A stretch of DNA of 64,000 nucleotides, from contig JAJDDY010000090.1 in the NCBI GenBank assembly GCA_029260075.1, positions 1 to 64,000 of the forward strand, written 5' to 3'. Both the position numbers and the translations under genes were made by a program. Of the stretch, positions 44,119 to 57,976 are shown in pieces. Position 1 is the first letter of the stretch. Each line of letters starts with the position of its first letter. The DNA comes from Phycisphaerae bacterium (GTDB lineage: Bacteria; Planctomycetota; Phycisphaerae; UBA1845). Below the pieces are notes generated by a model. That model was not told the origin of the DNA. It searched no databases and saw only the letters and a list, made by a program, of their open reading frames with translations.

Positions 44119-44280
44119 CCTTAGCAGACTGTTGAACAAGTCCGAGACACTGGCATGTCGTCGCCACTCCGCCGATGGCTACGGGCTGCGCCCTATGATA
44201 AGGAGGAAATCGCTATTGGATCACCGGCTGGAAGCCGGTGCCACACTTTCTTCAGAGGGTAGGGCGGGTTCCACCCGCCG
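44119..44280. repeat. CAGACTGTTGAACAA element end plus CACCGGC palindrome
   Basis: TTAG-CAGACTGTTGAACAAG at 44121-44140 is a well preserved element end. The matching palindrome ATCACCGGCTGGAAGCCGGT-GCCACAC lies at 44219-44247, and no opposite end follows. A GGCGGGT-TCC-ACCCGCC hairpin is at 44262-44278. Further on, GTTTCAATACTG / CAGTATTGGAAAC (44328-44374) forms another hairpin before the operon promoter. Confidence 0.65.
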
Positions 44281-44453: not shown

Positions 44454-44483
44454 TTGATATTCGATGGGTGAACCGAGTATAGT
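44454..44483 (+). promoter_or_regulatory. Sigma-70 promoter of the amidohydrolase operon
   Basis: TTGATA at 44454-44459, 18-bp spacer, TATAGT at 44478-44483. It is the only good plus-strand promoter seen between the divergent zinc-ribbon gene and the first amidohydrolase gene. The leader to the ATG at 44734 would be about 245 nt. Confidence 0.65.
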
Positions 44484-44733
44484 ATTCGCTGGAGGTGGAG
44501 ATTGCTGTCGTGAGCGGCTTCCTGCCGCGCTTACTGCGACCTCCCCTGAAGCAGGATTCGAATCCGCTGCGCTACGGCGTTCGCCCCGCGTGCGGTTCTC
44601 GCTTTCATGGTGGTGCGGTTTGTCTATGCGTTACGTTTCGTCACTGAGTGGTGGGCCGTGTTCCAAGAGCGGCGTGGGAACCGGTCGTAGCGCTTGGTGT
44701 AGTCCGGGCTTTGTACGCAGTGAGCAAGCCTCC

Positions 44734-46302
44734 ATGGATCACCGGCTGGAAAGCGGTGCCACACTTCTTCACCAGACCCTAAAGCGATTTGTGCGTGGCG
44801 TGTTGATCGCTGCTTTTGCTCTAGCTTTTTCGTCGCACGCCGCAGAGGCGCAGTTGTTACAGCGTTCGCTGGTGCTGACTGACGCCCGCATCGTCACCAT
44901 GGCCGGTCCGACGCTGGAGAAGGGATCAATCCTCGTCAAGGGCGGCCGAATCAGCGAGATCGGCGCCAAGGTCGATGCACCGTTCTTGGCCCGCCATCTG
45001 AAGCTTGCGGGAAAAACCGTAACGCCCGGATTCATTGATGCATGGAGCTCGCTTGGTCATACCGGCTCGGTCGGTCAATCGGGTCCGACCGGTGACGTTT
45101 GGGATTCCTTCAATCGCTACGCACGCGACGACTTTCGCCAGGCCTTGCAGCAAGGCGTCACGACGATCTACCTCGCGCCCGGCGGACCGCCCGGTGTGGG
45201 TGGTCGCGGCGTGGTCGTGCAACTTCGTCCACAAAGCGGCGGCGCCGCCGGGGCGGTGTTGGTGGAAGATGCAGCGCTGAGTATCAACATCGGGTCAGGG
45301 CAGTCGCCGATCAAACGCCTCAAGACGTTCAAGAAGGTCCGGGCGGATTTCCGCAAGGCGCTCGACTATCGTCAGTCGCTTGAAGACTACGAAGAGGATC
45401 TCAAGGAATACATTGAGAAGCTGGAAGAGCGCAGCAAGAAGAAGGATGAAGCCGGCTCCGACGGTGATGATCAGAAGAACGGCGACAAGAAGAACGGAGA
45501 GAAACCCGCAAAGGACAAGCCGTCACCCAAGCCTGACGAAGACAAACCCGACGAAGGTGACGGAGATGCGTTGAACAGTGGATCGCTTTGGGCCTCGTTT
45601 CAGCCTGTAAAAAGCGGCAAAAACGGTGATGGTGGGGGCAAGGATAAGGACGACGGCAACGGCAAAGATTCCGGCGACGACAAGAAATCGGACGACAAGG
45701 ACGACGAGGATGAGATCAAGAAGCCGGAGAAGCCATCGCCCGACCGCACGAGCGAGGTGCTTCTTCGCGCCATCGATCGCGAACTAACGGTCCGCATTGA
45801 AGCCCATCGAACCAGCGACATGCTCAACGCCCTCGACCTGGCTGAAGAGTTCAACCTCGACATCATCTTGGAAGGCGCCACCGAAGCGTATCTTATGGCT
45901 GATCGCCTTGCCGAAGCTGAGGTGCCCGTGATTCTTGGTCGCGTTACGCGATCGGGTGTGTTCGTCAACGATGAATACCGTCGACACTCGGCGTCCAACC
46001 CTGCAGCGCTGACCAAGGCAGGCGTTCGATGGACGGTGGCCAGTGGTGCTGCCGATTCCCAGGCTGCGCGATTTGTTGGTCTTAATGCGCAGGTCGCCGC
46101 CGGCCGTGCGGGGGTTGATTGGATGAAGACGGTGACGATCGACGCCGCCCGCATTTTGGGTATTTCTCGTCGTGCCGGACGCTTGGCACGCGGTATGGCG
46201 GCCGACTTCGTGGTGTGGAGCGGCGACCCCAGCGACCCGGGTTCGATCGTGGAACAGGTCTACATCGGTGGCAAGCTTGCGTATCAGGCGAAGGGGCAAT
46301 GA
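44734..46302 (+). CDS. Exported amidohydrolase-fold protein A, metal site lost
   Basis: About 522 residues; first gene of the eight-gene operon. Signal peptide VRGVLIAAFALAFSSHAAEA, then the beta-sandwich/TIM-barrel layout of imidazolonepropionase-like amidohydrolases (ARIVTMAGPTLEKGSILVKG, TVTPGFIDAWSSLGHTG, AHRTSDMLNALDLAEEF, GRLARGMAADFVVWSGDP). The canonical HxH (DxHxH) reads DAWSS, and the usual aspartate on strand 8 is not in its SDS context, so metal catalysis is unlikely. A Lys/Asp/Glu-rich linker of about 110 residues is inserted mid-barrel. The ATG chosen lies in a CACCGGCTGGAAAGCGGTG repeat copy; an upstream in-frame ATG (44626) is possible. Confidence 0.8.
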   Translation: MDHRLESGATLLHQTLKRFVRGVLIAAFALAFSSHAAEAQLLQRSLVLTDARIVTMAGPTLEKGSILVKGGRISEIGAKVDAPFLARHLKLAGKTVTPGFIDAWSSLGHTGSVGQSGPTGDVWDSFNRYARDDFRQALQQGVTTIYLAPGGPPGVGGRGVVVQLRPQSGGAAGAVLVEDAALSINIGSGQSPIKRLKTFKKVRADFRKALDYRQSLEDYEEDLKEYIEKLEERSKKKDEAGSDGDDQKNGDKKNGEKPAKDKPSPKPDEDKPDEGDGDALNSGSLWASFQPVKSGKNGDGGGKDKDDGNGKDSGDDKKSDDKDDEDEIKKPEKPSPDRTSEVLLRAIDRELTVRIEAHRTSDMLNALDLAEEFNLDIILEGATEAYLMADRLAEAEVPVILGRVTRSGVFVNDEYRRHSASNPAALTKAGVRWTVASGAADSQAARFVGLNAQVAAGRAGVDWMKTVTIDAARILGISRRAGRLARGMAADFVVWSGDPSDPGSIVEQVYIGGKLAYQAKGQ

Positions 46303-47618
46303 TGCGTGGACACATCGAAAAACTGAAACGTCCAAAAATCGAAACGTCGACATATCGAAACGATTGCGCATACGGGCTTCGACTTTTCGACTTTTCGATT
46401 TTTCGACGTTTGGTTGTCGTCGCCTTGCTCATCGGTGTGGGCATTGGCGAAGTTGCTGCGGCGGACACTACGGTGTTGGTGGCCGACCGATATGTGGCGC
46501 CGGATGGCACCATTAAGTCTGACATATTGATCGTCGTCGCCAACGGGCGCATCAGTCGCATCGTGCCCGAAGAACCTGAAGGCGTTGATGCGAAACCGGG
46601 TGTAGTCGATCACTATCCCGGCGCCGTAGTGTGTCCCGGATTGATCGATGTTCGTTCGGCTGTTGGGGCGTACGGCTCGAATCAAGAGGAAGCTTTCGCG
46701 ATCGATCCGGGTGCGTCGGCTATCGAGTTGGTGGATCGAAATCATCCGGTCTTCCGAGCCGCAGCCGTCGCAGGTATCACGTCCGTCTTGCTCATGCCCG
46801 GCGACGGCAATTTGATCTCCGGTGCGGCGGCGGTGGTGAAGACTGTTGTTGTTGATGGAAAAGGTGCGAGAAGGGATTCACGCACCAGCAGTTCACGCAC
46901 GAGCAGGTCGCGCAGCAGCGGTCGCCGTGGTGTTCCCGGCGTCGTTCGTGATGACGGGCCACTGGTTTTTTCCCTGGGGCAAAGCCCACTCAGGTTCGAC
47001 CGGGCGCCGACGTCTCGCGGCGGTGCGGTGGCCATGTTGCGCGAGTCGCTGCGCAAGGCCAAGGACGGTGTGGGTCATCAGCGTCTCGTCGACTTCGTCG
47101 GCGGTCGGTTGGACGGCTTGGTTGTCTGTGATGAGGCCATGGATGTGGATGCTGCGGTGAACTTGTTCGGCGGCATGAATTTGTCTCTGACGCTTGTCTT
47201 TACGGGAGCGGCCTCTGACGTTTCCGCCGGCTTGTCTGACGTGTTTCGCGCCACCGCGACGGGTCCGTATGACTACACGATGTCCCCCAACGCGCTGTCT
47301 CATGCGGCCGCCTTGGCGAAAAGTGGCAACCTTGTGGCACTGGTCGCGCGGGCGCCCGGTGGCGCGCCTGACGGGCTACGAGTCACAGCGGCGCTCGCTG
47401 CACGCTATGGACTGGACGCTTCGCTGGCGCGCTCGGCGATGACATTTTCGGCTGCAAGAGCGGTCGGCGTGGCGGATCGCATCGGTTCGATTGAGCAGGG
47501 CAAGGACGCTGATTTTGTGATTTTTTCCGATGACCCGCTTCGATTGGACGCGCGGGTGCTCGCGGTCTATGTCGATGGCGTGCGCGTCTACAGTCGCGAA
47601 CTGGAGGAAACACCATGA
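46299..47618 (+). CDS. Exported amidohydrolase-fold protein B, metal site lost
   Basis: About 439 residues. The ATG overlaps the previous stop (ATGA). The first 36 residues are encoded by a palindromic repeat, followed by the signal segment RRLVVVALLIGVGIGEVAAA. Amidohydrolase layout: RYVAPDGTIKSDILIVVANG, VVCPGLIDVRSAVGAYG (DVRSA in place of DxHxH), AGITSVLLMPGDGNLISGAA, and the end GSIEQGKDADFVIFSDDPLR. Most metal ligands are lost. At about residues 188-210 the sequence GARRDSRTSSSRTSRSRSSG is encoded by a hairpin repeat that is otherwise intergenic in this window. Confidence 0.8.
   Translation: MMRGHIEKLKRPKIETSTYRNDCAYGLRLFDFSIFRRLVVVALLIGVGIGEVAAADTTVLVADRYVAPDGTIKSDILIVVANGRISRIVPEEPEGVDAKPGVVDHYPGAVVCPGLIDVRSAVGAYGSNQEEAFAIDPGASAIELVDRNHPVFRAAAVAGITSVLLMPGDGNLISGAAAVVKTVVVDGKGARRDSRTSSSRTSRSRSSGRRGVPGVVRDDGPLVFSLGQSPLRFDRAPTSRGGAVAMLRESLRKAKDGVGHQRLVDFVGGRLDGLVVCDEAMDVDAAVNLFGGMNLSLTLVFTGAASDVSAGLSDVFRATATGPYDYTMSPNALSHAAALAKSGNLVALVARAPGGAPDGLRVTAALAARYGLDASLARSAMTFSAARAVGVADRIGSIEQGKDADFVIFSDDPLRLDARVLAVYVDGVRVYSRELEETP
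46326..46411. repeat. Palindrome translated at the start of protein B
   Basis: Arms 46326-46350 and 46387-46411 (AAACGTC(C/G)AAAAATCGAAA and its complement TTTCGATTTTTCGACGTTT) pair over 25 bp with two mismatches. It lies just after the ATGA start and before the signal segment. Confidence 0.85.
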
Positions 47619-49093
47619 TCGCCTTGCGCAACGGTGGATCGGCCCGGCGAAGCATCTGTATGGCTGCGATCGGGCTCAGTATTGTTTCGACTGCGGCGTG
47701 GGCGGAGTCGTCCCGCGTGACGGTCATTCGCGCAGACCGATTGTACTTGGGGAATGGGAAGATCGTATCACCGGGTGTGCTGGTTATTCGTGACGGTCGC
47801 ATCGCGGAAATCGGCGTTGACACGAAAACTCCCGATGGCGCCACCATCATCGAAATCGCTGACACGACGGTGACGCCGGGTTTGATTGATGCCAACGCAG
47901 CCGTCGAAGCGTCAGACTTGCTCGCTCCGGATCGCCGGATGCACCCGCGGACCTGGCACGACTTCTTTACTCCGGGTCACCATCACACCGCCACGCCGGA
48001 CTGTTGCGGTTCGACGTGTCCTCGTTCGATGCAGCATGTTAGCGGCACACGATGTATGGCCTGCGGATTCCCCGAGGCGAACACTGAGAATGCGTTTGCC
48101 GTGGGCACGAAACCCCGTGTTTCGCTGGCTGAACAGTCGTCCGAGGTAATTCCGGATACCCTCGTGTTGGATACCACCAACCTCCGCTCGCCCGATTTCG
48201 ATCGGTTGCTTCGCGGCGGTGTGACGACGGTGTTCGTGTCGTCGGATTCGGCTGCGGTCATCGGTGCTCGCGGCGCCATTGTGCGTACCGGTGGACCGGT
48301 GGATCGACGCGTGGTTCGTGCGGCGGATGCAGTGAAGGCGACGATGGGGACCGATCCGTCGTGGCGTGGTGGAGGCAATCGGCCGCCGGTTCGCCGTTTC
48401 GTTTCGTTCCGCAATCGCCGACCTACGACGAGGATGGGTGTGACGTGGGTCTTTCGTAAAGCCTTTCACGACACATTGCGTCATCGCGACGGGGTGGAGA
48501 CGTACGGTGCGGACCCTGTGAGTGATTCGGCGATCGCCGTGCTCGACAAGCTCCTTCGTGGACGCATCCCTCTGCGTATTCAAGCTCGCACCCAACATGA
48601 CATTACCACGGCACTGCGTTTGACGGCCGAGTTCGGTCTGTCGTTCACCTTAGAAGAGGCGACCGAAGCCTATCGCTGCATCGACCTGCTCGAAGCCGCC
48701 GAGGTGCCCGTCGTGTTCGGTCCGATCTACGTTCGGGCACGGGGCGATCGGCGGTTCAGTTCAGAGGTAGAACAGTCACGCTTGCACACCTTCAAGACGC
48801 TCTTGGAGAGCGATTTGATGACAGCGCTCACGGCCAACGAACTCCGCGAGGAAGATGGGCTCGCTCGCCAAGCGATGTATGCGATGCGTTTCGGTTTGAC
48901 GCGGGCACAGGTGTTGCCGGCGGTGACGAGCGTGCCCGCGAAGATCATCGGTGTGGCCGACTCGATCGGTACGCTGGAGTGGGGCAAGCGTGCCGACGTA
49001 GTGATCTGGCAGGGCGAGCCGTTTGACACGACGTCGCGAGCGCTCGTGGTTTTGATCGAAGGCGAAATTGTGCTCGATAGAAGGGCCGGATGA
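47615..49093 (+). CDS. Exported amidohydrolase-fold protein C with Cys/His-rich insert
   Basis: A 492-residue protein; ATG overlaps the previous stop by four bases. Signal peptide ICMAAIGLSIVSTAAWAE. Layout as its neighbours: RADRLYLGNGKIVSPGVLVI, VTPGLIDANAAVEAS (DANAA instead of DxHxH), LLRGGVTTVFVSSDSAAVIG, TQHDITTALRLTAEFGLSFT, GTLEWGKRADVVIWQGEP. The metal site is lost. Directly after the barrel's first strand is an unusual insert, FFTPGHHHTATPDCCGSTCP and HVSGTRCMACGF (three His, five Cys within about 35 residues), a likely separate metal-binding loop. The gap to the next gene is 12 bp. Confidence 0.8.
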   Translation: MIALRNGGSARRSICMAAIGLSIVSTAAWAESSRVTVIRADRLYLGNGKIVSPGVLVIRDGRIAEIGVDTKTPDGATIIEIADTTVTPGLIDANAAVEASDLLAPDRRMHPRTWHDFFTPGHHHTATPDCCGSTCPRSMQHVSGTRCMACGFPEANTENAFAVGTKPRVSLAEQSSEVIPDTLVLDTTNLRSPDFDRLLRGGVTTVFVSSDSAAVIGARGAIVRTGGPVDRRVVRAADAVKATMGTDPSWRGGGNRPPVRRFVSFRNRRPTTRMGVTWVFRKAFHDTLRHRDGVETYGADPVSDSAIAVLDKLLRGRIPLRIQARTQHDITTALRLTAEFGLSFTLEEATEAYRCIDLLEAAEVPVVFGPIYVRARGDRRFSSEVEQSRLHTFKTLLESDLMTALTANELREEDGLARQAMYAMRFGLTRAQVLPAVTSVPAKIIGVADSIGTLEWGKRADVVIWQGEPFDTTSRALVVLIEGEIVLDRRAG

Positions 49094-49105
49094 CGGCGTT
49101 GCACG

Positions 49106-50848
49106 GTGGACCGCACCGAACGTGACGGAGTATGTGCCGTGTTCGGTCGCACACGTTTTGGTGGGAATGGAAACGATATTTCAGGATTATGGTCGAGCGA
49201 ACGGTCCGTTGAGCGACTGATTCCGAAGCGGCTGATCCCGACGGAGAATAGTGTGGATTGTTCAACCTCAATCACGCCGCGACGGACAGGTCGAAGATGG
49301 CTTGTACGTTCGACGGCGGCTGGTGCGATCGGTTGTCATCGGTACGGTGTTGCGAAAAGGCGTGCCGTGCTCGCGACGGTTCTGCTGACGTGCGGTGTCA
49401 CTGTGTCGTCAGCGGTCGGCGCACCACCTGCGAAGGTCGCGCTAACCGGCGGTCGCATTATTCCTGTTGTCGGTGACGAGATCGCCACGGGTACGGTGCT
49501 CATCGAGTACGGCAAGATCACAGCGGTCGGCACGAACGTGGAGATTCCCTACGACGCGATGGAAGTCGACGTGAGTGGCAAGGTCGTGTTTCCTGGAATG
49601 ATCGATCCGCACTCGGCGCGGGCGTTGGACGTACCCAACGAGAACCTCCCGGTCACGCCTTTTCTCGACGTGTACGATGCGATCGACCCATCCCGCCTAT
49701 ATCTTGAAGACGCACTGCGTGACGGAATCACCGCGATTCATGTCATCGTGGCGAACAATTGTGTGATCGGCGGGCTCAGTCGCGTCGTGCATCCGATCGG
49801 CTTGACGCCTGATGAGATGACCATCGCGGCGCCCACGGCGCTAAAAATCAGCGTGACGCCGAAGCGCGGTTTCGACCGCATGACTCAGATCGCCAAGCTA
49901 CGCGAAACGTTCCTCGAACTCGACGACTATCTCGACAAGCTGGCCGAAGAAAAGTACGAAGAATCGCTCGAGGAGAAGGACGAAAAGATCGACGTTGGCC
50001 CCGAGGAGGCCATCAAACGCGGCCACGAGCTGATCGAGCCGACCGACTACGACGACCAACACCGCAACCTCGTCAAGCTCACACGCGGCGACATGAGTTC
50101 GTTCATCTATTGCCGAAGCGCCGGTGACGTGGGTCATGCGGTGAGGATCGCCAAGGACAACGGGTTCTTCGATCGCAGCGTTTTTGTGCTCGGGCATGCG
50201 TCGTACAAGGCTGTCGGCGAGGTCAAAGCCTCCGGGCGTCCGGTTGTGCTCGATGCTCAGTTGGTCCATCGCGAACGCGACCCGCTTACCGGAAAGCTTT
50301 CCGAGACGTTCGTGCCGAAGGTGTTCGCTGATGCCGGTGTCATGTTCGCGCTTCAGCCAAACCCCAACGCGTCACTCGCGGAGCGCTATTTGAATTACCA
50401 AGCCTCCCGGTGCGTACGAAACGGCGTATCGCGACAGACAGCGCTCGAATCAATTACGATCAATCCGGCGAAGATGCTCGACCTCGGCGACCGACTCGGT
50501 TCCATAGAAGTCGGTAAGGTGGCCAACGTGCTGGTGCTCACTGGCGACCCGCTCGACTTCAACACGTGGGTCGATGAGGTCTACATCAACGGTATTCGAG
50601 CGTATCGCCGCGACGATGACGTTCGTCTGAAACAGTTGTTGGGCGACGAACCACCTGAGGTCGCTGAGGAAGGCGACGAGGCTAAGGGTTCGGAGCAGGA
50701 GGACGTCGAAAGACCCGGCAAGAACGACAAAGCAGAGTCACCAGGCAAGAGTCACTCACCGGGCGACGCTGCGGATGACAAGTCGGACGAAAAACCCGCA
50801 GAAAACGCCCCCGGTGGCGATGAAGAAGGCGGAAGCGTCGCGCCATGA
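49106..50848 (+). CDS. Exported amidohydrolase-fold protein D, partial metal site
   Basis: Up to 580 residues from a GTG; the true start is probably nearer to the signal segment RRAVLATVLLTCGVTVSSAVG but no ATG is in frame. Layout: RIIPVVGDEIATGTVLIEYG, KVVFPGMIDPHSARAL (DPHSA keeps one of the two His), ALRDGITAIHVIVANNC, AGVMFALQPNPNASLAERYL (Asn in place of the strand-8 Asp), GSIEVGKVANVLVLTGDPLD. A charged coiled stretch (LDKLAEEKYEESLEEKDEK) is inserted. A long Glu/Asp/Lys/Pro tail follows the last strand. Its stop overlaps the next ATG. Confidence 0.75.
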   Translation: MDRTERDGVCAVFGRTRFGGNGNDISGLWSSERSVERLIPKRLIPTENSVDCSTSITPRRTGRRWLVRSTAAGAIGCHRYGVAKRRAVLATVLLTCGVTVSSAVGAPPAKVALTGGRIIPVVGDEIATGTVLIEYGKITAVGTNVEIPYDAMEVDVSGKVVFPGMIDPHSARALDVPNENLPVTPFLDVYDAIDPSRLYLEDALRDGITAIHVIVANNCVIGGLSRVVHPIGLTPDEMTIAAPTALKISVTPKRGFDRMTQIAKLRETFLELDDYLDKLAEEKYEESLEEKDEKIDVGPEEAIKRGHELIEPTDYDDQHRNLVKLTRGDMSSFIYCRSAGDVGHAVRIAKDNGFFDRSVFVLGHASYKAVGEVKASGRPVVLDAQLVHRERDPLTGKLSETFVPKVFADAGVMFALQPNPNASLAERYLNYQASRCVRNGVSRQTALESITINPAKMLDLGDRLGSIEVGKVANVLVLTGDPLDFNTWVDEVYINGIRAYRRDDDVRLKQLLGDEPPEVAEEGDEAKGSEQEDVERPGKNDKAESPGKSHSPGDAADDKSDEKPAENAPGGDEEGGSVAP

Positions 50849-53628
50849 TGATGGCCACACGGCAAACATCGCAGCGCAGTTGCCCACCGGCGGTTACGGC
50901 TCTTGGCGTCGTCGTATCCATGCTGATACTTATGGCGTCGCCGGTCCGTGGCGAAGCGGAGGCATCGTTCGTCATCCGCGCCGGTCGCGTGATCACGGTG
51001 GCGACGGATCAGCCGTGGTCGTTCGAGCCGGGAATTATTGTCGTTCGCAACGGCCTGATCGAAGCCGTCGGAACCGATATTGCCCTTCCGCCGGACCTGC
51101 CGGTGATCGACCTTCCGGACGCCACGGTAATGCCCGGATTAATCGCAGCCGCCACGTCGATTGCGTCGCGACATGCTGGTGACGAGTCCATCGCCGGCGG
51201 CTACCACGCGGTCGATACCTACGATCCCTACGACAACTACGCCATGGTTCTTGCGGGCGGCGTGACGACCGTTCATCTCAATCCCGGCGATCATCGTTTG
51301 GTTACCGGTCAAGGGGCTGTGGTTCGACTTGGCGGGGCGATGGACGAGCGTGTCCTCCGCGACCGATCCGACCTTACGATCAACTTCGGCGAGGCTGTGT
51401 TTTCGCCGCCCAACGACGTCACCTATTCCGCACCGTCTTCCGCCGACGTGGCCATGCCTCCTGCGGTTCGGCAGCGTCCCAACTCGCGTTTGGGTCAATA
51501 CCTGGCGATCGAAGAGGCGCTGGCGAAGGGCGTTCCTGTTCAATTCGCCACGTGGCATGTGGGTGAGTTTGTACGGGCGTGGCGCGACAACCTCCCATTG
51601 CGTATACAGGCGCAGCGCGGCGCCGACATCGCCGGTGCGGCGACCTTAGTACGTCGCCACGACCGGGCTGCGTATCTCGTGGGTGGCGCCGAAGCTCATC
51701 TGGTTGTGGATGATGTGTTGGCCGCCGATCTTCCGCTCGTATACCGCGTGGCACAGCCCATAAGCGGGCGGGCCAAGGACATCGGTTTCGATCCCAATGC
51801 GTTGGAAGTCGACGTCGATATGCTCTCAGCGCTTAGTGACGTGAAAGTGGCACTCGCTCCGCCGATCGGCGATCCGGCGCAGGGTTTGCGTCTTGCGGCG
51901 GCGACGGCGATGCGGGCGGGGTTTTCACCCCGCCGCGTGATCGAATCCATGACGCGTATTCCGGCTGAGGTGCTGGGCGTGGCCGATCGAGTGGGGTCAC
52001 TGGCGCCCGGTATGGCCGCTGATCTCGCCGTGTTTGGTGGCGACCCGGTGGCCACCACTTCGCACGTTCAGCGCGTATACATTGGCGGTCGCTTGGTATT
52101 TGAGGCGCCGAAACAGTCGGCGGTCGTCGTGCATGCGGGGACGATATGGGTCGGTCCGGACAGGCGTATTATCGATGGCTCGATCTTGATTGAAGATGGT
52201 AAGATCGCCGCGGTCGGTACGTCGGTTCCGCGCCCACCGTTCGCCAGATTCATCGACGCGGGAAGCAATGCGTTCATCACCCCCGGTTTCATTGACGCCC
52301 ACGGACACCTCGGTCTGGAGGGCGACCGTTCCGCCACACCATCGGACATGTCCTTCGCCGGCCTCGTCGGTGCGCCGGACGTGACCGATCGGCGCGTCGC
52401 TCGCGCGGGCGTAACTACGGTAATGGTTTCGCCGTACAAAGCCGCCTCGGGCGGATCGCAGGTAACAGCCGTCAAGACCGGCGGCGCGGACCGTGATTCC
52501 AGAGTGGTTCGGGCTACTGCCGGCGTCTACTTCGATCTTGGTGCCGGTGACCCGATGACCGTCGGTCCGAAGCTTCGCAAGCGACTCGGCGCCGGCACGA
52601 AATATCTCGAAACATGGCAAAAGTACGAGAAGGACTTGAAGGAGTGGGAAGAAAAACAAGCCAAGGGTGAGACCGTCGAGACGAAGGGCGAGACCGAGAC
52701 GGTTGAGAAGGTCGAAGGTGCGGAAGACCCCATTACGGGCACTTGGGCCGTTACCATTTCCGGTGGTCCGCTTCCAGAAGCGCAGAGCGCGACCATGCAA
52801 CTCAAACTGACCGGCTCCGATATCGAGGGTTATATCGACGTCGCCGGCGAACAGGCCAAGCTTGTCGCTACACTTCAGGGCAAACACATTTCCGGTCATT
52901 TGGAAATCGATCAACCGGGCGTTCCGCCGCTGGAGCTAGAGGCCGACATTGTCGAGCCGGACCACATCGTCGGAATATTCAGCATTCAAGGCATCGAAAT
53001 CGACCTCGACGCCACGCGCACGGACAAGAGCGACGTGGAGTTCAAAGTCGTAAGTCGGCGAAAGCGCGGCAAGGATGGCAAGCCGCTTCCTCCGAAGGTG
53101 GATGAGTCGCTCGAGCCATTGCGGTCCGCGTTGACCGGCCACATCGCCATCATTGTTGGCGTCCGTACGCCGCAGCAGATCGAAACCGTACTTGACGTAG
53201 CCAAGGCGTTCGAGGTGGCGGTCGTGCTTCGCGTCGCCGTCGGGGCGGCGGTGGTGGCTGATACGATTAAGGAACATAACGCAGGCGTCATTGTTCCCAC
53301 GACCGTTATACAGCGTCGTCGTTTCCTTCCGTACCACGAAGCAGACGATCTTTCGCGCAAGGGTATTCCCGTAGCGTTCCAAAGTGATGGTGAGGACGCC
53401 GCACGTTCGCTTTCGCTGGTTGGTTTGCATGCCGTGGAGCGAGGGCTGGGTGCCGATGCGGCGCTGGCGGCGCTGACCACCGGCCCGAGTCGGATGTTCA
53501 AGATCGACGACCGAATCGGTTCCTTGGAACCCGGTAAGGATGGCGACTTGGTCATCTTCAGCGGCCCTCCATTCGACGCCGGCAGCCGCGTCTTGCGCGT
53601 CTTGATCAACGGGGAGGAAGTACGATGA
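50845..53628 (+). CDS. Fusion of two amidohydrolase modules (protein E)
   Basis: A 927-residue protein with signal peptide VVVSMLILMASPVRGEAEA. Module 1 (about 40-430): RAGRVITVATDQPWSFEPGI, VMPGLIAAATSIAS (no HxH), GSLAPGMAADLAVFGGDP. Module 2 (about 430-927): ITPGFIDAHGHLGLEGDR retains DxHxH and VAFQSDGEDAARS the SD-type strand-8 Asp, while the histidines of strands 5 and 6 appear missing (VGV at the AHA position). A coiled linker (KYEKDLKEWEEKQAKG) leads into a beta-rich insert of about 95 residues (GTWAVTISGGPLP..LKLTGSDIEGYIDVAGEQAK) of lipocalin- or DUF-like type. ATGA junctions on both sides. Confidence 0.85.
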   Translation: MMMATRQTSQRSCPPAVTALGVVVSMLILMASPVRGEAEASFVIRAGRVITVATDQPWSFEPGIIVVRNGLIEAVGTDIALPPDLPVIDLPDATVMPGLIAAATSIASRHAGDESIAGGYHAVDTYDPYDNYAMVLAGGVTTVHLNPGDHRLVTGQGAVVRLGGAMDERVLRDRSDLTINFGEAVFSPPNDVTYSAPSSADVAMPPAVRQRPNSRLGQYLAIEEALAKGVPVQFATWHVGEFVRAWRDNLPLRIQAQRGADIAGAATLVRRHDRAAYLVGGAEAHLVVDDVLAADLPLVYRVAQPISGRAKDIGFDPNALEVDVDMLSALSDVKVALAPPIGDPAQGLRLAAATAMRAGFSPRRVIESMTRIPAEVLGVADRVGSLAPGMAADLAVFGGDPVATTSHVQRVYIGGRLVFEAPKQSAVVVHAGTIWVGPDRRIIDGSILIEDGKIAAVGTSVPRPPFARFIDAGSNAFITPGFIDAHGHLGLEGDRSATPSDMSFAGLVGAPDVTDRRVARAGVTTVMVSPYKAASGGSQVTAVKTGGADRDSRVVRATAGVYFDLGAGDPMTVGPKLRKRLGAGTKYLETWQKYEKDLKEWEEKQAKGETVETKGETETVEKVEGAEDPITGTWAVTISGGPLPEAQSATMQLKLTGSDIEGYIDVAGEQAKLVATLQGKHISGHLEIDQPGVPPLELEADIVEPDHIVGIFSIQGIEIDLDATRTDKSDVEFKVVSRRKRGKDGKPLPPKVDESLEPLRSALTGHIAIIVGVRTPQQIETVLDVAKAFEVAVVLRVAVGAAVVADTIKEHNAGVIVPTTVIQRRRFLPYHEADDLSRKGIPVAFQSDGEDAARSLSLVGLHAVERGLGADAALAALTTGPSRMFKIDDRIGSLEPGKDGDLVIFSGPPFDAGSRVLRVLINGEEVR

Positions 53629-54983
53629 AACGTGAACACGTCGAAACGTCGATACGTCAAAATGTCGAAAAATCGAAAAATCGGAGAACGGGATCTGCTA
53701 CGTTTCGACGTATTGATCTGTCGCGGTTTCGACATTTTGACGTATCGACATTTCGACGTTTATTGGTCGTTGTTGGTTTGATCGCGGGGACGGCGTCGGG
53801 TGCCGATCCGGACGATTCGGGACGGAAGCTGGCCTTTCGTGTCGGCAAGATCGTTACGATGGACGTTAACGACACGGTGGTCAACAACGCTGTGCTCTTG
53901 GTCCATGATGGCCGGATCGAGCGTTTTGAAAGTGCCAAGGATCTGGCAGTTCCTGAGGGCTATCGTGTGATTGAGGCGAAGAAGCTTTGGCTTGTGCCAG
54001 GGTTGGTCGACGCTCACAACCACACCGCCGGGTCGTTGATGGACCTCAACGACATGGTCTACCTATCCAACCCGGGCCTTCGAACGTTGGAGACGATCAC
54101 GCCCGACAACGAGCTCATCAAGGAAGCCCGCTCGGGTGGTGTGACGACTGTGCTCCTGATTCCCGGAAGTGGAACCAACCTCAGCGGGTTCGGAACGGTG
54201 GCCAAGACGGGAGGGGAAAGTGTGGACGAAGTGGTCGTGCGATCTCCCGGTTCCTTGAAGATCGCCCAAGCGGGCAACCCCGAGCGGTTCTGGTTCGGTG
54301 TGGGTCGCAGCTACATGAACTACAACACGCGGCAAACGCTGAACAAAGCCAAGGACTATCACGAGTCGTGGTTGGCGTTTGAACGGGGCGACACGTCAGA
54401 GAAGCCGGCGGTCGATCTCTACTACGAGGAGTTTCGCGGGCTGTTTGCCCATGAGTATCCCGTTTCGGTTCACACGCAGATCTATCAGGTCGTCATGACC
54501 ACGATCGACATGCTGGCTAACAAGCTCGGGATAAAGACCGTGCTCGACCACAGCACGTTCGACGGGTTCAAGACCGCACCGCTCGCCATCGCAGCCGGTG
54601 TGTATACCATCAACGGACCCCGCCAATATTGGTTCGACCGCTCACAGCGAAAGATGCACGGCAACGCCGCCCGGTGGTGGCAGGCGGGTATGCACAAGCT
54701 TGGAATCAACACGGACGCCCCGGTCGTGCAGGAGAAGCAACTATCCTATCAGGCGGCGATGGCCTGCTGGTATGGGTGGAAACCCTACGATGCGCTGCGC
54801 GGCGTCACGCGGATTCCTGCCGAAGCGCTAATGGTCGATGACCGCGTGGGGTCGATAGAGGTCGGCAAAGATGCGGACTTCGGTTTGTGGACCGGTGATC
54901 CGATCGACCCGCGTTCCTCGTGCGAGCTGACCGTGGTCGGCGGCAAGATAGTTTATGACGCCAGCGTGCGCCGGCGGTTCTAG
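53625..54983 (+). CDS. Exported amidohydrolase F with intact metal site
   Basis: A 452-residue protein; the only module of the cluster that keeps all family ligands. The signal segment RRLLVVVGLIAGTASGA follows an N-terminal extension encoded by a 32-bp-arm palindrome. DxHxH is VPGLVDAHNHTAG; histidines lie in YPVSVHTQIYQVVMTTIDML and VLDHSTFDGF; the strand-8 Asp is in LGINTDAPVVQEKQL. The end is GSIEVGKDADFGLWTGDPID. It resembles imidazolonepropionase-like/adenosine-deaminase-related amidohydrolases that cleave C-N bonds of small metabolites or cyclic peptides. Export to the periplasm is indicated. ATG overlaps the previous stop; the next gene starts directly after the TAG. Confidence 0.85.
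   Translation: MKREHVETSIRQNVEKSKNRRTGSATFRRIDLSRFRHFDVSTFRRLLVVVGLIAGTASGADPDDSGRKLAFRVGKIVTMDVNDTVVNNAVLLVHDGRIERFESAKDLAVPEGYRVIEAKKLWLVPGLVDAHNHTAGSLMDLNDMVYLSNPGLRTLETITPDNELIKEARSGGVTTVLLIPGSGTNLSGFGTVAKTGGESVDEVVVRSPGSLKIAQAGNPERFWFGVGRSYMNYNTRQTLNKAKDYHESWLAFERGDTSEKPAVDLYYEEFRGLFAHEYPVSVHTQIYQVVMTTIDMLANKLGIKTVLDHSTFDGFKTAPLAIAAGVYTINGPRQYWFDRSQRKMHGNAARWWQAGMHKLGINTDAPVVQEKQLSYQAAMACWYGWKPYDALRGVTRIPAEALMVDDRVGSIEVGKDADFGLWTGDPIDPRSSCELTVVGGKIVYDASVRRRF
53639..53758. repeat. 32-bp-arm palindrome translated at the start of protein F
   Basis: Arms 53639-53670 and 53727-53758 (CGTCGAAACGTCGATACGTC-AAAATGTCGAAA and its complement) differ at one position. The loop is 56 nt. Both arms are inside the reading frame, between the ATGA start and the signal segment. 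Confidence 0.9.
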
Positions 54984-56468
54984 ATGAAACATACCCCGTA
55001 CAATGCTCGGTGCAATCCGATGTCTGAGTTTCGAATGACCCAATTGATCAAATACACATTGATGGCTGCGTTGGCGTTGGCGCTTGTGGCGACGACCGCT
55101 GTGGCTGAGGACGTTCACAAGGGATTCGTTGTCGTCAAAGCCCGGCGGGTGATCACCGTATCCGGGGCCGAGTTTTCGCCCGGGATCGTCGTGATTGAGA
55201 ACGGCAAGATTTCCCTTGTGGGTGGCAGCAAGATCGAATACCCGCCGACCGCGAAGATGATTGATGCCGGTCGCGCTACGGTGATGCCCGGTTTCGTTCA
55301 TCCGCGTACGCGGTTCGGCTTGGCGGACTACCGGCGCAGCGGCGTCAACGGCGACCAACATGTGACCGACGAAGTTTATCTATCGGAGATCGACTTCGAG
55401 CCAATGTTGGAGTCCGGCTATACAACCGTCTGCTATATTCCGGCGGGTGATGGCATACCCGGTGTGGCCGCAGCGTACAAGACCGCAGGTCCGAAAGACT
55501 CGCCCGACGACGAGGAAGACCGGCTTGTCGAGGGCTCGTCATATCTCGCCGTCTCTCCGAAATGGGGCAGCAAGGGCAAGAAGACCCTGCGCGACGCGCT
55601 GAAGAAAGCCGAAGACGAGATCGAAAAGGTCAAGAAGGCTCGCGAAGAATGGGACAAGAAGCAGGAAGAGAATAAAAAGAAGGCCGAGGCGGAGAAGAAG
55701 AAGAACGATAAGCCCAAGGATGAAGACGGCGACGGTAACGGCGAAGATAAGGCCCGTCGACATCGGCGATCCGATCACACATTTCGTGTTCAAAAGGACG
55801 GCGACGAAGAGCCACCCGATAAGCCGAAGAACGGTGACAAGAACGGCGAGAAGAAAGAGGCTGACAAGCCCGAGGAGTTCAAACCGCCGAAGATCGATCC
55901 GAAACACCAACCGTTGGTCGATCTGATCGAGAAGAAAGAGGGGTCGCGCATGATGATCCGCCTGACGCGCGCGTCGGCGCTGCTTCATCTAGACGACGTG
56001 CTTGAGCAGTACGACGAACTTCCCTATGCGTTGTATCTCGCCAGTTCATTCCGGAGCGACTACCACCATATTGTGGAACAACTCGGCGAGCGGGAGGCCA
56101 TGGTCGCCATTCGCCCGGAGATTCGAAATCTTCCAAATACGACGTTCCGGTACAACTTGACGGACCGCCTTGATCGGGCGGGGTGTACGGTCAGCACGGT
56201 ACCGTTCGCTGACACAAGAGTCGAACTCATGCGCGTGCGCGAGCGAATGCTCGACCTGATGCGCGCCGGGCTATCGCGCAAGACCGCGATCAAGTCGCTA
56301 ACGCTGAACCCTGCCGAAGCGATCGGTTTGGGTGAGCGGCTTGGCAGTTTGGAAAAGGGTAAGGATGGCGACCTGCTCTTCTTCAGTGGCGATCCGTTAG
56401 ACCTGAACTCGCAGCTTGAACGGGTCATGATCCTTGGAAACATAGTCTGGACCGCGGACAAAGATTGA
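54984..56468 (+). CDS. Exported amidohydrolase-fold protein G, metal site lost
   Basis: A 494-residue protein beginning immediately after the TAG of gene F. Signal peptide YTLMAALALALVATTAVAED. Layout: ARRVITVSGAEFSPGIVVIE, VMPGFVHPRTRFGLADY (VHPRT instead of DxHxH), ESGYTTVCYIPAGDGIPG, GSLEKGKDGDLLFFSGDPLD. Metal ligands lost. A Lys/Glu/Asp-rich linker of about 110 residues (KKAEDEIEKVKKAREEWDKK..) with coiled-coil character and a basic patch (ARRHRRSDHTFRV) is inserted in the barrel at the same place as in proteins A and H. ATGA overlap with the next gene. Confidence 0.8.
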   Translation: MKHTPYNARCNPMSEFRMTQLIKYTLMAALALALVATTAVAEDVHKGFVVVKARRVITVSGAEFSPGIVVIENGKISLVGGSKIEYPPTAKMIDAGRATVMPGFVHPRTRFGLADYRRSGVNGDQHVTDEVYLSEIDFEPMLESGYTTVCYIPAGDGIPGVAAAYKTAGPKDSPDDEEDRLVEGSSYLAVSPKWGSKGKKTLRDALKKAEDEIEKVKKAREEWDKKQEENKKKAEAEKKKNDKPKDEDGDGNGEDKARRHRRSDHTFRVQKDGDEEPPDKPKNGDKNGEKKEADKPEEFKPPKIDPKHQPLVDLIEKKEGSRMMIRLTRASALLHLDDVLEQYDELPYALYLASSFRSDYHHIVEQLGEREAMVAIRPEIRNLPNTTFRYNLTDRLDRAGCTVSTVPFADTRVELMRVRERMLDLMRAGLSRKTAIKSLTLNPAEAIGLGERLGSLEKGKDGDLLFFSGDPLDLNSQLERVMILGNIVWTADKD

Positions 56469-57976
56469 TGACGATGCCATTATTCAAATCTCAACGTCGT
56501 GTCTGTGGGTGTGACTCCGATGTGGTGTCCCGGCGATTGCTCGGACACGCCTCACGTTTTGCTGCGTGGATGATGGCCATGCTCCTTGGCGTGTTGGTCG
56601 GTGTGCCGGTCGGCTCGAACGCAGCGTCGGCGCAGGTGATCGAGTCCATCGACGCGCCCGATCCCAAGCCCGAACCGAAACCCGAAGAGGGCGACGACGC
56701 CGAGCCTGACGATTCGAAGAAGTCGGATAAGACTGAGGCCGGCAAGAAAGAAGACGAATCGGCTGACGAAGAGGAGGATGAGGAGGAAGACGCGGACCGC
56801 TATCTTGCGATTACCGGCGCCGTGATCCATACCGTCACAGCCGGGGATTCATTCGGCAAGACGATCTTGACCAAGAACGGAAAGATCGATCAGATTGGTT
56901 ACGATCTGGATATTCCGGAAGAGGCCGAGCGGCTGGACGCGACCGGCTTCCACGTTTATCCGGGTTTGGTTGCCGTGGGCAGTCGGGGGCTCCTGGCGTC
57001 GCCGCCGGAAGATGATACGAATGTCTACGCGCTCAACATGACGCTCGCGCTGGCCGCCGGCGTTACTACGGCCGTCAACGGCAACAGCGTGGGGAAAATG
57101 ACGTACGGGAGCGTCGACGATATCATCGTGCGGCGCGAACTGTTCACGTCACTCAAGTATTCATCACGCCAGCCCACCGCCCGGCGCAAGCTCCGTGAAG
57201 CGTTCGAAAAGGTTCGCCAGTATCAGCGGGACCTCGAGGCGTACGAGGAAGAAAAGAAAACCGACGAGGACGCCGAGGAGCCGGACAATAAGTGGATCAG
57301 CGGTCAGTACAAGACGTGTCTGCAACTCATGAAGCACGAGGTGACGGCCACCTTCGACGCCAACGACGATTACGACATCGTAGCCTGTTGCCAACTGGCC
57401 GAGCGGTACAACTTCAAAGCCGTGATCAAAGGTGCGACCGAGGGTTGGACGGTGGCGTCGCAGATGGCCCGGGCTGGCGTCTCTGCAATCGTTACGCCGC
57501 GCACAACAGTTGCACGCGACAGTCGGTCTAACCGCCCGAACGGCTCGTCCATCGAGAACGCCGCCATCTTGCATCGCCACGGGATACCCCTTGCGATTGT
57601 TCCTCGCACGACGTCCATCACGCTGTGGGGTGTGGCCGGAACCGACCTGTTGCACCTGGCCATGGAGGCTGCGTTTGCGGTTCGAGGCGGGCTTCCGCAA
57701 GACGCCGCCATTCGCGCGATCACGATCGACGCCGCGCGCCTGTTGGGCATCGATCATCGTGTCGGGTCCATCGAGGTCGGCAAAGACGCGGACTTCGTGA
57801 TCACGGACGGCGATCTGCTGCACTATATGACGCTCGCCCGCTGGACCATCGTGAACGGCCGCATCGTCTACGACAAGGACGCCGACTCCCTCTTCGAGCA
57901 CATTCGCAAAGGCGGCGACCGGGATGCGCCACCGCCCGACGACTATTGGCCGCACCGTCTTGGCGCGGGTCAGTAA
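56465..57976 (+). CDS. Exported amidohydrolase-fold protein H, metal site lost
   Basis: A 503-residue protein, last gene of the operon. Hydrophobic export segment FAAWMMAMLLGVLVGVPVGS, then an Asp/Glu/Lys-rich linker (EPKPEEGDDAEPDDSKKSDK). Layout: GAVIHTVTAGDSFGKTILTK, HVYPGLVAVGSRGLLAS (no DxHxH), ALAAGVTTAVNGNSVG, HRVGSIEVGKDADFVITDGD. Metal ligands lost. A charged helix EKVRQYQRDLEAYEEEKK is inserted at the same place as the linkers of A and G. The unusual tail GDRDAPPPDDYWPHRLGAGQ is conserved-looking and could be a docking peptide. A 365-bp gap follows. Confidence 0.8.
   Translation: MMTMPLFKSQRRVCGCDSDVVSRRLLGHASRFAAWMMAMLLGVLVGVPVGSNAASAQVIESIDAPDPKPEPKPEEGDDAEPDDSKKSDKTEAGKKEDESADEEEDEEEDADRYLAITGAVIHTVTAGDSFGKTILTKNGKIDQIGYDLDIPEEAERLDATGFHVYPGLVAVGSRGLLASPPEDDTNVYALNMTLALAAGVTTAVNGNSVGKMTYGSVDDIIVRRELFTSLKYSSRQPTARRKLREAFEKVRQYQRDLEAYEEEKKTDEDAEEPDNKWISGQYKTCLQLMKHEVTATFDANDDYDIVACCQLAERYNFKAVIKGATEGWTVASQMARAGVSAIVTPRTTVARDSRSNRPNGSSIENAAILHRHGIPLAIVPRTTSITLWGVAGTDLLHLAMEAAFAVRGGLPQDAAIRAITIDAARLLGIDHRVGSIEVGKDADFVITDGDLLHYMTLARWTIVNGRIVYDKDADSLFEHIRKGGDRDAPPPDDYWPHRLGAGQ

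Follow-up and report, generated by a model that had tools for sequence, protein, structure and literature searches.

The window analysed here, a stretch of DNA of 64,000 nucleotides, contains eight consecutive plus-strand open reading frames, A to H (44464-57976), encoding nine amidohydrolase modules, since E is double. One of these modules, F, is metal-competent and the other eight are dead, and the set combines this composition with conserved order, near all-or-none inheritance, export signals and tight junctions. We consider it probable that the octet forms a secreted hetero-oligomer whose sole catalyst is F, with the dead subunits shaping, gating or regulating it.

All eight proteins matched Pfam PF01979/PF07969 (Amidohydro_1/3) with scores above the curated cut-offs, which bears out a preliminary description of this DNA as carrying eight adjacent plus-strand amidohydrolase genes, one of them with two modules; none of the eight reached an NCBIfam equivalog cut-off. 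Identity with HutI (TIGR01224) was rejected, with 35 bits for F and at most 63 for the others vs a curated cut-off of 298, and so was identity with Xaa-Pro dipeptidase (NF051886), with 63.5 bits for F and 75 for E, the best, vs a cut-off of 500. A known anti-phage defence system was likewise discarded, PADLOC matching none of the eight proteins. The positions of the genes and of their main features are collected in Table 1.

Table 1. Genes, metal ligands and inserted domain of the octet, with positions in the window.
Feature	Position	Strand	Evidence
Gene A: exported dead amidohydrolase module	44734..46302	+	Pfam; HxH position DAWSS; ortholog census
Gene B: exported dead module	46299..47618	+	Pfam; ortholog census
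Gene C: exported dead module	47615..49093	+	Pfam; ortholog census
Gene D: exported dead module	49106..50848	+	Pfam; ortholog census
Gene E: single chain with two dead modules	50845..53628	+	Pfam; census; AlphaFold2 model
Inserted domain of E2, an eight-stranded beta-barrel (E residues ~632-727)	52738..53025	+	AlphaFold2 secondary structure
Gene F: exported, only module with complete metal site	53625..54983	+	Ortholog ligands
F ligands H131 and H133 (DAHNH)	54015..54023	+	Ortholog alignment, census
F ligand H283, beta-5	54471..54473	+	Ortholog alignment, census; 3OOQ alignment
F ligand H309, beta-6	54549..54551	+	Ortholog alignment, census
F ligand D364, beta-8, NTDAP	54714..54716	+	Ortholog alignment, census
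Gene G: exported dead module, lysine/acid-rich insert	54984..56468	+	Pfam; census
Gene H: exported dead module, acidic N-terminal segment	56465..57976	+	Pfam; census

The start of gene A is uncertain: its frame is open from 44464, the ATG at 44464 lies far upstream, the ATG at 44734 falls inside a repeat, and the signal peptide starts at about 44.79 kb. This 32-bp repeat occurs at 44217-44248 and 44735-44766, with 94% identity between the copies, and contains the palindrome CCGGCTGGAAGCCGG; the latter copy covers the candidate start codon. The true start of D probably lies well downstream of 49106. The barrel of A holds a lysine/acid-rich insert, and D, the best conserved of the dead modules, ends in a charged C-terminal tail. 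Conserved motifs were found in C (LRIQAR, LEEATEAY and LRDEDGL) and in H (GAxEGWT and WG(L/V)). In the leaders of B and F, palindromic elements built on the 8-bp unit CGTCGAAA / TTTCGACG occur in frame with the codons (46305-46420 and 53623-53770); the copy in B forms a hairpin, that in F gave a folding z of -6.25, and the genome holds 16 near-copies vs 0 for the reversed control. These elements resemble the Rickettsia-type palindromes that are inserted in genes.

The genes are closely joined. Four junctions (A/B, B/C, D/E and E/F) are ATGA overlaps, against the five reported; G/H proved to be TTGA, or a 1-nt overlap if H starts at ATG 56468. The reported zero spacing is found at F/G, where TAG is directly followed by ATG, and the only loose junction is C/D. 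Across loci, start/stop overlaps of 4 nt or 1 nt were frequent at A/B, B/C, E/F and G/H, and their predominance throughout the phylum at A/B, E/F and G/H counts in favour of a complex.

To assign the metal site, ligand positions were set by alignment to 3OOQ, the nearest solved relative. The five ligands of F were invariant in 16/16 aligned orthologs and in every scored F copy (112-114 rows, 80 loci), and all five are found together in F and in none of A, B, C, D, E1, E2, G and H. The ortholog census revealed that these eight modules have lost the metal site throughout the phylum, each retaining a metal ligand at no more than two of the five sites, and A, E1, G and H at essentially none. In orthologs of A, for example, the HxH position is of W/S type, and the beta-5 histidine is replaced by Glu, the beta-6 histidine by Gly and the beta-8 aspartate by Gly. 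Re-reading the HxH position of the window's dead modules returned the motifs already listed for it in the preliminary description (DAWSS, DVRSA, DANAA, DPHSA, AAATS, HPRTR and AVGSR). That description had also seen an intact DxHxH motif in both F and the second half of E, and had allowed for one or two active subunits. Its statement holds for F, the one conserved active type, and fails for E2, which has HxH alone: among orthologs the first histidine of E2 is kept in 23/85 and the second in 73/85, the beta-8 position holds Asp in 35 of about 88, and no ortholog has the histidine at beta-5 or beta-6. With E2 dead in every ortholog, the census rules out a second active site there. Homologous clusters in which the dead modules keep full metal sites were looked for in the 80-locus census and not found.

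AlphaFold2 modelled E (mean pLDDT 81) as two amidohydrolase modules, E1 at about residues 40-424 and E2 at about residues 425-927. Comparison of the modelled E1 with 3OOQ gave a VIA-align Z of 41.6 and an rmsd of 2.6 over 348 residues, with no ligand left in E1, showing in a predicted structure that the fold has been retained. In E2, the inserted barrel is preceded by a long helix (570-606) and has a GTW near its first strand; its sequence is conserved in the E2 of relatives, with no significant Pfam match and with a few PDB sequence matches that appear to be low-complexity chance hits. In appearance this barrel is lipocalin-like. F was modelled with modest confidence (mean pLDDT 64), and the best fold matches of that model were 3OOQ, an amidohydrolase of Thermotoga maritima that was also the best PDB sequence match of F (E 1.8e-51).

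The distribution of the octet was followed by scanning 84,980 species genomes with an F profile, which gave 215 related loci, and the best 80 of 215 were read. The order A-B-C-D-E1E2-F-G-H on one strand was present literally in 76/80 of these, with all eight genes in 47/80, and the four exceptions resolved on inspection into one D/E open frame and three very diverged copies of C. Among relatives of the window's genome the full order was found wherever contigs were long enough. The preliminary description had proposed looking in other planctomycetes for a conserved gene order coupled to the same dead sites, and both are borne out by these loci. The NCBI record name is Planctomycetota for 73/80 loci, and we provisionally read the few under other names as misnamed MAGs. 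Of 392 Planctomycetota genomes sampled evenly, 105 had F, 108 had D and 100 had both, the overlap being taken from a comparison of the two lists; among 60 close relatives D was found in 17, namely the 16 genomes with full F and one fragmentary assembly (G017); the distribution is therefore patchy yet near all-or-none. That the genes are kept or lost together suggests that the inactive copies do work within a common machine. Flanking genes gave no clue to function, none being generally conserved and no neighbour, transporter or receptor recurring beyond single lineages.

Export was judged from a hydrophobic segment ahead of each module, a heuristic and not SignalP. By this measure the signals described for all eight genes are conserved in most orthologs (A 51/54, B 55/56, C 36/44, D 62/63, E 65/68, F 90/91, G 70/74 and H 62/71). 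A separate signal peptide on every gene would also suit dead modules that act as independent secreted binders (scavengers, sensors or buffers), passing small molecules to F with no stable complex, and so would the pocket-region motifs peculiar to C (LRIQAR/LEEATEAY) and H (GAxEGWT) and the extra beta-barrel in E2. Such binders, however, would need neither all-or-none presence nor a fixed order across the phylum, and the octet lacks a conserved neighbour such as a transporter or receptor; we think this alternative unlikely.

The history of the modules was examined in trees. Module trees run parallel (r 0.66-0.91 over 48 loci), and in the unrooted tree each module forms its own clade, except for some stray fast-evolving A sequences. 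With four other, long-branched amidohydrolases of the same genome as outgroup, 46/46 dead modules fell in one clade adjoining the active modules (bootstrap 92, SH-aLRT 91). This support is good, not decisive, and the metal site was probably lost once, anciently, with diversification afterwards. The preliminary claim that catalysis was lost while fold, order and coupling were kept is strongly supported. A multi-enzyme pathway, in which some of the seemingly dead modules work through a different metal or shifted ligands, would draw on the single positions that are partly kept: besides the second HxH histidine of E2 (73/85), the first HxH histidine persists in 61/80 orthologs of D and the beta-6 histidine in 49 of about 76 of B, and the beta-5 position of C is Gln in 65/75. 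But at most two of the five ligands survive in any one module, and essentially none in A, E1, G or H, and the single dead clade suggests one old loss, making such a pathway quite improbable.

Several observations count against a complex. A and B are the fastest evolving modules, under weaker constraint than F, C or H, and F has been multiplied in one lineage group. It occurs in 2-5 tandem copies in 12 loci, with ligands kept and the other genes single-copy; in L095, L097, L099, L101, L103 and L106 amplification of F alone was seen in otherwise normal octets. The fixed stoichiometry proposed earlier was accordingly not upheld: since tandem copies of F with intact ligands stand beside single copies of the other genes in some lineages, stoichiometry need not be 1:1. 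Moreover, the octet is split in two genomes. In one (L048, with L111), A-B-C together with a fragment of D are remote from D-H, in a manner suggesting breakage by a partial duplication in D, and in the other (L080, with L112 and L113) A-E and F-H are on different contigs, implying that operon contiguity is not strictly needed.

The behaviour of F also bears on the idea of a structural assembly at the surface or envelope (sheath or scaffold), for which the activity of F would be secondary or serve maturation. A fold kept without catalysis is in keeping with such a structure, as are the charged stretches of low complexity found in A, D, G and H; against it, F is the most conserved module, its ligands are invariant, and it alone is amplified in some lineages with its sites intact, and we hold this explanation to be decidedly improbable. 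In close pairs of complete loci (restricted to L032/L035, L037/L038 and L039/L040, as elsewhere some entries compared wrong genes), dN/dS was 0.05-0.25 for every module, indicating that the dead modules are maintained by purifying selection. Recent tandem duplication and decay, which would explain tandem paralogs that lack catalytic residues as degenerating leftovers, is scarcely credible and is refuted by the orthology of the modules across the phylum, by dN/dS well below 1 and by the undisrupted copies in the window.

The octet is not the only set of this kind in the window's genome, which carries two more members of the clade. A tandem amidohydrolase pair on contig 62 (L109, 1431-4189) has one full metal site and one dead module, and this active + dead composition was found in 10/10 loci read, from ten genomes. 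An exported three-module fusion on contig 88 (L110, 2049-6380) is arranged dead-active-dead; in other fusions that were read, an active and/or a dead module was recovered, parsing being incomplete for some of them. The octet modules, the pair, the fusion and 3OOQ form one clade vs the four other amidohydrolases of the genome (98/86, with this small, long-branched outgroup), and the dead modules of the octet share one clade with the dead partners of the pair and the fusion. Active/dead pairing is therefore a recurring design (1+1, 1+2 and 1+8), and inactive partners are the rule among enzymes of this clade. Such sets offer a natural series for asking how and why enzyme complexes gain inactive subunits.

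What was demonstrated is genomic coupling; that the products assemble, what each dead subunit does, and which metal and substrate are involved are inferred. In the secreted hetero-oligomer that we favour, eight polypeptides of one ancestral fold would be made from one operon and exported by their signal peptides to the periplasm or envelope, where they might assemble via the interfaces used by related homo-oligomeric amidohydrolases. F, a putative zinc-type amidohydrolase of the 3OOQ group, would be the only catalytic subunit, probably cleaving a small amide (a dipeptide-like or N-acyl compound), and A, B, C, D, E1, E2, G and H may form a chamber around F, recognise or gate the substrate, or activate F. 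A wider reading, which we offer tentatively, is that a homo-oligomeric amidohydrolase became a fully specialised hetero-oligomer, a secreted nine-module machine found across the phylum, as one of at least three active/dead designs whose dead subunits descend from a single ancient inactive ancestor. Because about a quarter of the sampled Planctomycetota genomes carry the octet, it is likely to represent a significant, unstudied secreted activity of the phylum.

To our knowledge, eight dead modules to one active, ordered across a phylum and exported, go far beyond known cases, single dead-paralog partners being already known. Our literature search found no paper on the octet cluster or on planctomycete amidohydrolase arrays, nothing resembling eight dead modules per active one, and no paper on Thermotoga 3OOQ / TM0814. 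The closest protein, 3OOQ (deposited as 'amidohydrolase'), is the best fold match of F and of the dead E1 and shares the ligand pattern of F, but it is a single-module active protein for which dead partners are not known. Xaa-Pro and Xaa-Arg dipeptidases and ochratoxinase-type enzymes (3MTW, 3BE7, 3N2C and 4C5Y) belong to the same superfamily branch and include secreted or dipeptide-cleaving examples; they differ in being homo-oligomers with every subunit active, and F matches them much more weakly in sequence than it does 3OOQ. That related amidohydrolases can form high-order oligomers, as in the D4 homo-octamer of ochratoxinase (PMC11342369), counts in favour of a complex. Trypanosome AdoMetDC/prozyme and deoxyhypusine synthase resemble the octet in that a paralog without catalytic function stimulates an active enzyme (PMC5201418, PMC3663545). 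They have, however, one dead partner, are cytosolic and eukaryotic, and are of unrelated fold. In ClpP/ClpR and proteasome-type hetero-rings, a homo-oligomer has given way to a hetero-oligomer that includes specialised, inactive subunits; these rings differ in fold from the octet, which sets one active type against eight dead modules, includes one fusion and is exported in all its parts.
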